Positions 16,190-20,168 of a DNA stretch of 64,000 nt are shown here, in pieces (the first letter of the stretch is position 1; each line of letters opens with the position of its first letter). This DNA is from Spirochaetota bacterium. Lineage in GTDB: Bacteria; Spirochaetota; Spirochaetia; SPDA01; JAJSAL01. The notes under the pieces are model-generated. The model did not search any database. It was not told the origin of the DNA and saw only the letters and a program-made list of their open reading frames with translations. Position numbers and translations under genes: made by a program. The stretch spans positions 1 through 64,000 of the forward strand of contig JAJSAL010000173.1 in the NCBI GenBank assembly GCA_024274705.1, in the 5' to 3' direction.

Positions 16190-16204
16190 CCACGGGGTGG
16201 TTTG

Positions 16205-18490
16205 ATGAAGAAGCTGTTAATTGTAACTGTTCTGTTGACGGGCTCGATCGTTCATCTTTTTGCCGCGCAAGGCAATCTTCCCGGTAAGGTCGATTTGATG
16301 TGGGTTGCCTGGCTTGGTTCGGTATCTGCATTGAGCTTCGCCTTCATTCTCACAGTGTATATAATGAAAAAAGACCCGGGAAATGAAAGGGTGAGGGAGA
16401 TAAGTTCTCATATCCTTGAAGGCGCAAACGCTTATCTCGGTCAACAGTATAAGATCGTGGGTATTTTTTTCGGTGTTATGTTCATCCTGTTTCTTTTTTT
16501 GGCATTCACTTTAAAACTGATATCAGTATTTGTACCCTTCGCATTCCTTACCGGCGGATTCTTCTCCGCCTTGTCGGGATTTCTGGGAATGTTCGTTGCC
16601 ACCCGGGCCAATTCCCGTACGGCCTGGGCGTCAAAAACGTCCCTCAATGCCGGGCTCCGTGTAGCATTTTCTTCCGGAACGGTTATGGGCATGGTGGTTG
16701 TGGGTCTCGGGATTCTGGATATTGCAATATGGTGGAAAATACTTACTCTGTTTCAACTTCCAGTGGAAAAAATTCCCCCGGTGATGATCACTTTCGGCAT
16801 GGGGGCATCTTCCATGGCTCTCTTTGCCCGTCTTGGCGGAGGAATCTTTACGAAAGCCGCTGATGTCGGAGCCGACCTGGTTGGAAAAATTGAAGCCGGG
16901 ATTCCGGAGGATGATCCGAGGAATCCCGCTGCAATTGCGGACAACGTCGGAGACAATGTAGGGGATGTAGCCGGTATGGGGGCGGACCTGTATGAATCCT
17001 ATGTCGGTTCGATTATAGCCACCATGGCTCTTGGCAGTGTCGCTTCCCTGAAGCTGGAAGGTATTGTTGCCCTGCAGCTGATCCAGATACCCCTTCTGAT
17101 TGCTGCTGTCGGAATTATCTGTTCCATTTTAGGTACCTTTTTCGTACGTACCAGGGAAGAAGCCTCTCAAAAGGAACTTCTCCGTGCGCTCCGAATCGGT
17201 ATCTATTGCACCACCGTTTTAATCGGTGTGGTTTCACTCTTCCTCATTGTTTCTATCCTCGGCAGCCGGATGATCGGATTGTGGGGTTCGGTGGTAACCG
17301 GTTTGATTGCAGGTAATATAATCGGTTTTGTTACCGAGTATTTCACGTCCGACAATTACAGACCGACAAGAGAACTGGCTGAAGAATCGCTTACCGGGCC
17401 GGCAACTGTAATTATAGGCGGACTTTCGCTGGGCATGGGCTCGACCCTGATCCCGGTTATAACCGTGGTTATCACAACCCTGGCAGCTTTTTTTCTTTCC
17501 GGCGGATTTCAGCATCCCGGCCTCGGACTCTACGGTATCGGTCTTTCCGCTGTGGGGATGCTTTCAACCCTGGGGATTACTCTGGCTACCGATGCCTACG
17601 GACCGGTGGCGGACAACGCCGGGGGTATCGCGGAAATGGCAAAACTCGAACCGGAGGTCCGGAAGAGGACAGATGCCCTTGATGCACTGGGCAACACTAC
17701 CGCAGCGACGGGGAAGGGCTTCGCAATCGGTTCCGCTGCCCTGACTGCCCTTGCACTCCTTGCAGAATATGCAAACAAGATAATCGAAGCCCTGGACCAT
17801 CTCATCAGCATGGGAAAAGAACCTTTCAGCATCGAACACTTTGACATCAGAATCCTGGAGATTGCCAAGACAACGGCAGGAAAAATCCAGTCGATACACC
17901 TGAATATCGATCTTCTCGACCCGAGGATTCTCGTCGGGCTTTTCCTCGGTTCTGTACTCCCCTTTGTGTTTGCGTCATTATCGATGAAAGCAGTCGGCAG
18001 GGCCGCCGGAGCCATGGTTCAGGAAGTTCGTAGGCAGTTCAGGGAAACCCCGGGTATTCTCGAAGGAACCGAGAAAGGAGATTATGCCAGGTGTGTTGCT
18101 ATTTCCACCAAGGGAGCCCAGCGGGAAATGATCCTGCCGTCCCTGCTTGCCATCGTTGCTCCGTTAATCGTGGGAATTCTTTTGGGTCCTTTTACGGTTA
18201 TCGCCATGCTTGCCGGCGCCGTAGGTTCAGGTTTTGTCCTGGCCATAATGATGGCAAACTCAGGAGGAGCCTGGGATAACGCAAAGAAACTCATAGAAGG
18301 AGGTTCTTATGGAGGAAAAGGCTCTGATTCCCACAAGGCATCCATCGTGGGTGATACAGTCGGCGATCCTTTCAAGGATACTTCGGGACCTTCGATAAAT
18401 ATTCTTATTAAACTGATGTCCATGGTGTCTATTGTATTCATACCTGTTATTCTGGTTCTTAATAATTTGTTTTTACAGTGGGTTCTGTGA
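16205..18490 (+). CDS. hppA: Membrane-bound ion-pumping pyrophosphatase, K+-dependent type
   Basis: A 761-aa, ~16-helix membrane pyrophosphatase that hydrolyses PPi to pump Na+ and/or H+. The substrate site [22 protein letters not shown] is intact, as are the later DNAGG and DNAKK acidic motifs. The [11 protein letters not shown] segment has Ala where K+-independent enzymes have Lys, indicating K+ dependence. In helix 6 the semi-conserved glutamate is Glu264 in LYESYVG, the position seen in the sodium-pumping Thermotoga enzyme; plant proton pumps carry it one turn later. A Na+-type pump is therefore favoured, though Na+/H+ dual pumping cannot be excluded. ATG 16205 is chosen over the TTG three bases earlier; GGGGTGG precedes it. 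Confidence 0.95.
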
Positions 18491-18551: not shown

Positions 18552-18560
18552 TGATACAAT
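18552..18560 (+). promoter_or_regulatory. Extended -10 promoter of the glp-type operon
   Basis: TGATACAAT forms an extended -10 element without a recognisable -35. A short perfect hairpin (18535-18551) lies directly upstream. The predicted start is near 18567, just before the structured leader. Confidence 0.4.
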
Positions 18561-18570
18561 AGAGGACAGA

Positions 18571-18693
18571 GCAGGCGGTGAGAACGGGTTCAAGTATCGG
18601 GAAAGGTCTAATACAATGCCCCGAGGCGTCAGAACCGGTAAAAGCCATTAATCCTGGACTCAGGAGCGCCGACCTTTGTGTTCGGCCGCCTGC
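18571..18693 (+). ncRNA. Candidate structured RNA leader (possible riboswitch) before glpA
   Basis: A 123-nt region is closed by a perfect 8-bp helix: GCAGGCGG (18571-18578) with CCGCCTGC (18686-18693). Inside are GAAC/GTTC (18582-18591), TCGGG (18597-18601) with CCCGA (18620-18624), GGCG (18625-18628) with CGCC (18667-18670), and TCCTG-GACT-CAGGA (18652-18665). In addition AAAGGTC (18602-18608), lying in the loop of the TCGGG hairpin, is exactly complementary to GACCTTT (18671-18677), a 7-bp pseudoknot. The block starts about four bases after the predicted transcription start. I recall no matching riboswitch class. The pairing was found by eye; no folding energy or covariation is available. 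Confidence 0.45.
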
Positions 18694-18710
18694 AATATTT
18701 ATTCCCGCTA

Positions 18711-20168
18711 ATGGTAAAAGAAAATCAACTACAAAACCTGGTCAGTGCTGACGTTGCCGTCATCGGGGCGGGGGTAAGCGGCGCTTCCGTTGCCCGGACC
18801 CTTTCCAGGTATCAACTGGATGTGGTCCTTCTGGATAAGGAAGCGGATGTAGCCTTCCAGACGTCCAAGGCGAACAGCGGGATCATCCACGCCGGCTTCC
18901 ATCACAATAAAAAATATTTGAAAACCGAACTGGAACTTAAAGGGAACATGATGTTCGACCGCCTCCACCGGGAACTGAAGTTTCCCTTCTACCGGTGCGG
19001 GATCCTGGTGGTAGCGATGCAGCAGGAGGAACTCAAGTATATATGGCACCTGTACGAACAGGGACAGGAGAACGGGGTATTCGGCATGGAGATGTGCTCC
19101 CGGGAGAAGATGCTGGAACTGGAGCCTGGACTGAATAGTGATGTGGCAGGCGGCCTCTATGCGCCCAGTGGAGGTATCATCGAACCGTACCTCTATGGGT
19201 TTACCATGGTGGAATCGGCACAGAAGAACGGTGTAAAGGTGGTCATGGACTTCAATGTAACCAGTGCGGATTTTTCGGGCAATAGCTATATCATACGGTC
19301 CGAAGACGGCAGGATCGTTAAAGCCAGGTATGTGATCAACGCCGCGGGGCTCTACGCCGACGAGGTTTCCAGGATATTCGGAGGAGAAAAGTACACCATC
19401 CGCCCCAGGAAGGGGGAGTACTACGTGATGGACAGGACCACGAAGGCACGGCCGAAACACGTGCTTTTTCCTGTGCCCACCCCGGTATCCAAGGGGATCC
19501 TGATCATCCCTACCGTTGAGGGGACCGTGCTGATAGGTCCTACCGCGGAAGTAATAGAAGATAAGGAGGACCTGTCCACATCAACGGAGAAACTGCATAG
19601 CATCTTCGATGCATCCCGGAAGATGATGAAGGAGGTGTCCCAACATGATGTGATTACCACTTTTGCCGGGAGCAGGCCCTGTTTATCAAGCGACGATTTC
19701 TATATCGATGTCTCAGGCGTCGCCCCCCATTTTATCCAGGTCGCAGGAATCCAGTCTCCGGGATTGACCGCCTCCCCTGCCATCGGGGAGTATGTGAAGG
19801 ATTTACTAAAGAAAGCCGGGTGTGTGCTTATCGGAAAACCCGGGTTCGATCCTTCCCTGGACAGGGAGTACCGGTTCAGTGAAGTTTCCAGGGAAGAAGC
19901 GGACCGGCTGATCCATGAAAACCCCGCCTGCGGAAACATCGTGTGCAGGTGCGAGAACATCTCCGAGGAGGAGATCGTCACAGCGATCCGGAAGGGACAC
20001 CGTACTCTGGACGGGATCAAGTTTTACTCCAGGGCCGGTATGGGCCGGTGCCAGGGGGGCTTCTGTTCGTACAAGATTATGAAGATCATCATGCGGGAAA
20101 CCGGTATGAGGTATGACCGGATTACCAAGCACGGAAAGGGAAGCGTCCTCCTGGTGGATGAGCTGTAG
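18711..20168 (+). CDS. glpA: Glycerol-3-phosphate dehydrogenase-like FAD oxidoreductase (GlpA/LhgO family)
   Basis: A 485-aa FAD-dependent dehydrogenase of the DAO/GlpA family. The dinucleotide motif VIGAGVSGASVARTL opens the protein and a C-terminal BFD-like [2Fe-2S] domain follows (CRCENISEEEI ... GMGRCQGGFC). This is the anaerobic GlpA architecture and differs from aerobic GlpD. It probably oxidises glycerol-3-phosphate to dihydroxyacetone phosphate and passes electrons to the neighbouring flavoprotein. The ORF track begins at GTG 18678, which has AGGAG 11 bases upstream but lies inside the candidate RNA helix; ATG 18711 is used here and the true start is uncertain. It is the first gene of a three-gene unit. 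Confidence 0.82.
   Translation: MVKENQLQNLVSADVAVIGAGVSGASVARTLSRYQLDVVLLDKEADVAFQTSKANSGIIHAGFHHNKKYLKTELELKGNMMFDRLHRELKFPFYRCGILVVAMQQEELKYIWHLYEQGQENGVFGMEMCSREKMLELEPGLNSDVAGGLYAPSGGIIEPYLYGFTMVESAQKNGVKVVMDFNVTSADFSGNSYIIRSEDGRIVKARYVINAAGLYADEVSRIFGGEKYTIRPRKGEYYVMDRTTKARPKHVLFPVPTPVSKGILIIPTVEGTVLIGPTAEVIEDKEDLSTSTEKLHSIFDASRKMMKEVSQHDVITTFAGSRPCLSSDDFYIDVSGVAPHFIQVAGIQSPGLTASPAIGEYVKDLLKKAGCVLIGKPGFDPSLDREYRFSEVSREEADRLIHENPACGNIVCRCENISEEEIVTAIRKGHRTLDGIKFYSRAGMGRCQGGFCSYKIMKIIMRETGMRYDRITKHGKGSVLLVDEL

Follow-up and report, generated by a model that had tools for sequence, protein, structure and literature searches.

What is the folded element in front of a glp-type operon in a spirochaete genome, and does it belong to this operon? 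The window (the whole stretch of 64,000 nucleotides that was analysed, contig JAJSAL010000173.1 of a Spirochaetota bacterium) carries at positions 16202-18490 a gene for a membrane-bound (Na+/H+) pyrophosphatase, and the element fills the gap between this gene and the operon. An earlier note on this DNA had proposed a candidate structured RNA with a pseudoknot and had tied it to the operon and its metabolites.

Homologues were first found by plain blastn. Comparison of the stretch with 98 relatives returned four places in three genomes with 71-74% identity, none of which adjoins glp genes. From these four places and the window copy (five sequences), covariance model R1 was built. A second covariance model, R2, was used for further searches. 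The features in the window are:

18568-18696, + strand: whole RNA as matched by the covariance models (R1: 119.8 bits, E 1.7e-27; R2: 104.6 bits, E 1.8e-25; the window copy is in the training sets of both)
18571-18693, + strand: RNA core, P1 to P1'
18571-18578, + strand: P1 5' strand GCAGGCGG, pairs with 18686-18693 (perfect 8 bp)
18582-18585, + strand: P1b 5' strand GAAC, partner GTTC at 18680-18683
18587-18591, + strand: P2 5' strand GGTTC, partner GAACC at 18632-18636
18592-18596, + strand: J2/3 AAGTA, unpaired purine-rich joint, highly conserved in alignment A4
18597-18601, + strand: P3 5' strand TCGGG, partner CCCGA at 18620-18624
18602-18608, + strand: pseudoknot 5' strand AAAGGTC in the P3 loop, exact 7 bp with 18671-18677
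18620-18624, + strand: P3 3' strand CCCGA, partner TCGGG at 18597-18601
18625-18628, + strand: strand GGCG of the likely helix P6, partner CGCC at 18667-18670; crosses P2
18632-18636, + strand: P2 3' strand GAACC, partner GGTTC at 18587-18591
18637-18646, + strand: P4 hairpin GGT AAAA GCC, reduced or degenerate in the window copy, optional in the family
18652-18665, + strand: P5 hairpin TCCTG(GACT)CAGGA, contains the AGGAG read earlier as a ribosome-binding site
18667-18670, + strand: strand CGCC of the likely helix P6, partner GGCG at 18625-18628
18671-18677, + strand: pseudoknot 3' strand GACCTTT, partner AAAGGTC at 18602-18608
18680-18683, + strand: P1b 3' strand GTTC, partner GAAC at 18582-18585
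18686-18693, + strand: P1 3' strand CCGCCTGC, followed by AT-rich AATATTTATT, a putative weak terminator in the window copy
18711-20168, + strand: first gene of the glp-type operon, with DAO and BFD-like [2Fe-2S] domains (Pfam DAO 1.8e-68)

The closing 8-bp helix, the inner stems, the 7-bp pseudoknot (its two strands are spaced by 63 nt) and a CAGGAG within a stem, all described in the earlier note, are present where it had placed them. Its list of stems needs two amendments: P4 is degenerate in the window copy, and the short helix GGCG/CGCC (P6) had been overlooked. Comparison of the copies shows that P1 and P1b together form a long closing helix, and that the RNA further comprises an arm of P2 and P3, the optional P4 and the conserved hairpin P5. 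The P3 loop pairs with the 3' side of the RNA, which creates the pseudoknot, and P6 is a likely additional short helix.

The RNA is widespread but rare. With R1, 9 of 395 genomes from the class were positive. An exact DNA pattern, run over 84,980 species with one genome each, hit 25 contigs labelled as Spirochaetes, Desulfobacterales/Deltaproteobacteria, Acidobacteria, Verrucomicrobia, Planctomycetota, Chloroflexi and Atribacteria. All 25 were confirmed by the covariance model (E 4e-11 to 1e-33). Using R2, the RNA was found in 2 of 193 genomes of an acidobacterial class, 5 of 289 Verrucomicrobiota, 16 of 297 Desulfobacterota (one doubtful), 1 of 201 Chloroflexota and 5 of 199 Planctomycetota genomes (one weak). 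Altogether, about 55 further copies are known from Spirochaetota, Desulfobacterota, Acidobacteriota, Verrucomicrobiota, Planctomycetota, Chloroflexota and one Atribacterota bin. This corresponds to a sporadic occurrence in at least six phyla and in about 0.5-5% of the sampled genomes, rates that are slightly high since the sampled sets include the seed genomes. One match with 28 bits (L121) is doubtful and adds no evidence. Metagenome bins account for many of the RNA-positive genomes, and at least one of the labels seems to be incorrect: the binned Planctomycetota contig L036 shares 83% identity over 762 bp around the RNA with the spirochaete contig L008, and is probably mis-binned.

Is the structure real? 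The fold of the window RNA has -45.8 kcal/mol compared to -36.96 +/- 3.43 for shuffled sequences (z -2.58, 3 of 200 as good). This comparison, one of the checks named in the earlier note, favours the RNA, but taken alone it lends modest support and is only suggestive. The second check, covariation in homologues, is decisive and settles that this is a structured RNA: Changes on both sides occur in most modelled pairs and exceed the controls. Among 30 distinct sequences, 30 of 35 pairs show such changes. In the alignment of 52 copies (A4), the number is 33 of 35, and 91.4% of the cells are paired. The covariation score of 0.513 compares with 0.170 +/- 0.008 after shuffling (0 of 500 as high) and with 0.055-0.116 when the partners are slid. 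RNAalifold, applied to the same 52 copies, returned the same helices apart from P4, with 27 of 29 pairs doubly changed.

The individual helices contribute as follows (52 copies). In P1, all nine modelled pairs are doubly changed and 93.9% of the cells are paired; P1b covaries in 4 of 4 pairs (94.7% of cells paired) and P2 in 4 of 5. All six modelled pairs of P3 covary, with GCGA/TCGC in L027 as an example. P4 covaries in 5 of 5 pairs where the hairpin exists; it is missing from many Desulfobacterota copies. P5 is paired in 99.6% of the cells and covaries in four of its five pairs (e.g. TGCGG/CCGTA, TTCAG/CTGAA).

A4 had been fitted to the nested structure, and the model did not contain the pseudoknot, which therefore provides the cleanest, independent test. 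With its own partner, the stem comprises on average 5.04 bp compared to 3.78 +/- 0.14 bp after swapping of partners among copies (0 of 2000 as high). All six column pairs are doubly changed, and variants such as GAGGT/ACCTC, GATGTC/GACATC, GAGATT/AATCTC, TGGA/TCCA and GCGG/CCGC are seen. P6 is paired in 99.5% of the cells. It hardly varies, the exceptions being a compensatory change found in L105 and L106 (AGCG/CGCT) and a single G-U pair, so this helix is graded as likely, with weaker support than the others. G-U pairs outnumber A-C combinations 63 to 26, which means that the + strand of the window is the RNA strand. That 18571-18693 holds a genuine conserved structured RNA is practically certain.

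Where does this RNA begin and end? Directly upstream of P1, a sigma-70-like -35/-10 match of at least 8/12 is present in 55% of 29 loci, compared to 4.7% of 1179 control stretches taken from these loci. Similarly, at least six Ts within the 12 nt after P1 are found in 59% of the copies and in 6.3% of the controls. Both figures count consensus matches. In the window the signals are weak: the promoter score is only 7, due to a weak -35 box, and the T-run is weak, too. The putative promoter of the window copy is:

18555-18560, + strand: TACAAT, resembling a -10 hexamer; presumed promoter, from which the RNA is predicted to start at about 18567

The statement in the earlier note that the block starts where transcription is predicted to start is probably right, with TACAAT as the corrected -10 element. 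Its statement on the other end has to be adjusted slightly: The in-frame ATG is located at 18711, 18 nt after P1. In the family as a whole, the statistics support that the RNA has its own promoter ending just upstream of P1 and that P1 plus the T-rich run would act as an intrinsic terminator in many copies. A promoter-like site and a T-rich run at the ends of the fold are the anatomy of a stand-alone ncRNA gene.

The position in front of an operon suggests something different, a cis-acting leader or riboswitch that controls the glp-type genes. These encode the DAO/BFD oxidoreductase, a pyridine nucleotide-disulphide oxidoreductase and a DUF1667 protein, and the RNA precedes the first ATG on the same strand at a distance of only 18 nt. 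In three clades, the placement before typA, a ppi gene and a gene for an APC-type transporter is comparable. In its compact, pseudoknotted fold with invariant joints, the window RNA resembles preQ1-II and SAM-II riboswitches. However, unlike these riboswitches the window RNA has no consistent downstream gene, its neighbours are randomly oriented and it matches no Rfam model. Of the nearest downstream genes, 23 share the strand of the RNA and 17 lie on the opposite one (p 0.43; genes called mechanically). Many copies are arranged tail-to-tail with an opposing gene or carry their own T-run, and six (L010, L025, L026, L039, L107 and L112) end 7-38 nt from an opposing gene. The neighbours vary: typA, cyclophilin-type ppi, APC-type transporter and ABC transporter genes as well as tRNAs are among them, and both orientations occur. 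An all-against-all blastp of ORFs within at most 20 kb around 32 copies revealed no shared neighbour family beyond related loci and generic ABC-type hits. A position constantly upstream of and codirectional with functionally related genes was not found. Furthermore, an R2 scan detected no RNA near 12 orthologues of the first operon gene (55-64% identical) in relatives. Because these orthologues lack the RNA, the glp-type operon is, as far as genome comparison can tell, a local neighbour and no conserved partner. The tie to the operon and its metabolites is not supported, and a leader or riboswitch is very unlikely. Local cis effects are possible where a copy lies 18-30 nt before a gene on the same strand, as is the case for glp in the window, typA in L116/L117 and the APC-type transporter gene in L110.

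The earlier note had also considered that a stem hides the ribosome-binding site of an alternative GTG start codon. A GTG does occur at 18678. The CAGGA strand is, however, kept in copies without a downstream gene on that strand; it is simply the 3' strand of P5. Pfam and NCBIfam domains start at residue 24-25 of the frame extended to this GTG, and in the orthologues the protein similarity does not set in before residue 6-13, counted from the ATG at 18711. The frame from 18678 is thus not conserved, and the idea of a hidden ribosome-binding site for a GTG start is rejected. Such conservation, which the earlier note had listed as an argument against a structured RNA, was looked for and not found.

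Several recurrent neighbourhoods were observed. In five related Desulfobacterota (L116, L117, L118, L119 and L120), a ppi gene, a typA-like GTPase gene or both are located downstream of the RNA; no other context is conserved across several genomes (gene names by eye). In three unrelated clades, seen after the fact, it follows a tRNA gene on the same strand with gaps of 14 nt (tRNA-Ala), 48-260 nt (tRNA-Arg/His) and 165 nt (tRNA-Phe). The tRNA-linked loci are L039 2430-2630, L016 2386-2937, L022 2219-2553 and L104 1261-1631. In L039, where the gap to the tRNA-Ala gene is 14 nt, both may be co-transcribed. On the spirochaete-type contigs L008, L010 and L023, the RNA is close to a gene for a small holin-like membrane protein (MLTPEL...), on differing sides.

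The patchy distribution could also be explained without an RNA gene, by a mobile DNA element or a folded, single-stranded attC-like recombination site. Up to three copies occur per genome, and genes for a tyrosine recombinase, transposases, RAYT and group II intron RT were found by eye near some copies. In Pyrinomonadaceae, units of about 280-300 bp are duplicated, and the duplication includes the promoter region. On the other hand, no recombinase is common to the surroundings of the copies. Where an attC site is a hairpin, the RNA has several branches and a knot. Its fold lies between a promoter-like site and a T-run, and the excess of G-U pairs identifies one strand as that of the functional RNA. 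No copy was detected in 72,556 plasmids, 50,697 phages or among viral contigs, where the single pattern match (L102) had no model match and is due to chance. Neither association with a particular integrase nor presence on mobile replicons was found. The tree of the RNA follows the phyla, with 9 phylum changes compared to 26.4 for shuffled labels. A mobile element or recombination site is a quite remote prospect. Because the tree follows the phyla and the occurrence is 0.5-5%, the history would fit an old, patchy inheritance, mainly within phyla, with some transfer and duplication.

Multiple and decayed copies were seen at several loci. The planctomycete genome G1545 has three copies (L162 7252-7386, L162 8225-8359 and L163 6066-6200). 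The two in L162 form a tandem with a distance of 970 bp that encloses a small HicB-like gene, and both have the same palindromic repeat CCACGAAACAC...GTGTTTCGTGG upstream. The L163 copy is near a RAYT-like remnant. Two partial copies, L068 1501-1600 and L069 776-903, were considered as insertion sites and rejected: In L068, promoter and 5' half were lost by a 410-bp deletion relative to the orthologue L033. L069 retains promoter and 5' half and diverges at P4, where it is cut.

Is the RNA a member of a known family? Rfam 15 at gathering score returned no family for the window and seven other loci; only tRNA neighbours matched. Permissive scans yielded nothing for the window; in L117 and L030, no match had an E below 2. 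The impression of the earlier note that the RNA resembles no known riboswitch class stands. By these searches it is unrelated to every family testable here. Full-text searches of the literature turned up no description; an earlier one outside Rfam is possible.

Short, structured, stand-alone and scattered in its distribution, it is of the same general kind as several known RNAs, and it might be a diverged form of one of them (Y RNA, 6S RNA, raiA/ModT or a piece of tmRNA). Bacterial Y RNA (YrlA), short and stand-alone, has a long closing helix and a patchy distribution, and the window RNA shares all these traits. In contrast to Y RNA, it has no Rfam match, and the Y RNA partner Ro60 (TROVE, PF05731) is missing in 43 of 45 RNA-positive genomes; its presence in just two led us to discard Y RNA as a candidate. 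6S RNA (ssrS) is a stand-alone regulatory ncRNA with its own promoter. The window RNA, too, stands alone and has a presumed promoter, but 6S RNA folds into one long, imperfect hairpin that has a central bubble, whereas the window RNA is multibranched and pseudoknotted and has no Rfam match. RaiA/ModT (RF03072) is a conserved, structured ncRNA that stands alone; it has a closing helix, two pseudoknots have been proposed for it, and it occurs in many species without a fixed partner gene as target (PMC11706538). The likeness lies in the stand-alone bacterial ncRNA with closing helix and pseudoknotting. However, raiA/ModT is reported from Bacillota and Actinomycetota, with eight helices. At about 125 nt, the window RNA is the shorter of the two; it occurs in other phyla, and no Rfam model recognises it. 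As neither Rfam nor the permissive search of three family members gave a match and TROVE is almost always lacking, descent from a known stand-alone RNA is extremely unlikely. Most likely, the RNA represents a new family of stand-alone pseudoknotted bacterial ncRNAs, a kind that includes raiA/ModT.

In summary of its genetics, 18568-18696 on the + strand is probably a stand-alone gene for an ncRNA of about 125 nt from an undescribed family that would act in trans, perhaps bound to a protein. The stand-alone, trans-acting gene as such is rated slightly higher, as quite probable. How might the RNA act? The conserved unpaired bases (AAGTA, TCA, AAT and the joint before the pseudoknot) are short and inside the knotted core, the loops are variable, and the RNA has no long conserved open stretch for antisense pairing. 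For this reason, base-pairing to targets is unlikely. What remains is recognition of the fold by a protein or a ligand, or catalysis.

A self-cleaving or otherwise catalytic RNA with the invariant core as active site would account for the compact knotted centre, the invariant joints AAGTA, TCA and AAT, and the dispensable P4, as in small ribozymes. Promoter and terminator at the ends of the fold would, however, be an unusual setting for self-cleaving motifs, and no Rfam ribozyme family matched. Catalysis is unlikely. The RNA might instead act in trans as a compact folded molecule that most likely binds a protein and less likely a small ligand; it could form an RNP or be a decoy regulator. Protein binding is placed first because ends, promoter and stability fit an RNP, and as mode of action it is a tentative proposal with a chance slightly under one half. 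In the window, the weak T-run may allow read-through into the glp-type operon, so that the RNA promoter may also serve the operon by virtue of its position.

New RNA families with clear covariation over several phyla are rare, and earlier ones, among them 6S RNA, raiA/ModT, OLE and riboswitch classes, tended to open new biology. It is conceivable, if rather doubtful, that this stand-alone, double-pseudoknotted RNA with its patchy occurrence in at least six phyla constitutes an undescribed class whose biochemical role (dedicated RNP, trans-acting ligand sensor or ribozyme) is absent from known RNA classes. The case also corrects a natural mistake: An RNA just upstream of an operon need not be its switch. 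A complete alignment, a fold that has been tested, boundaries, a presumed promoter and terminator and some 55 additional examples are available for the family, and expression analysis, structure probing and identification of the partner can start at once from these data.
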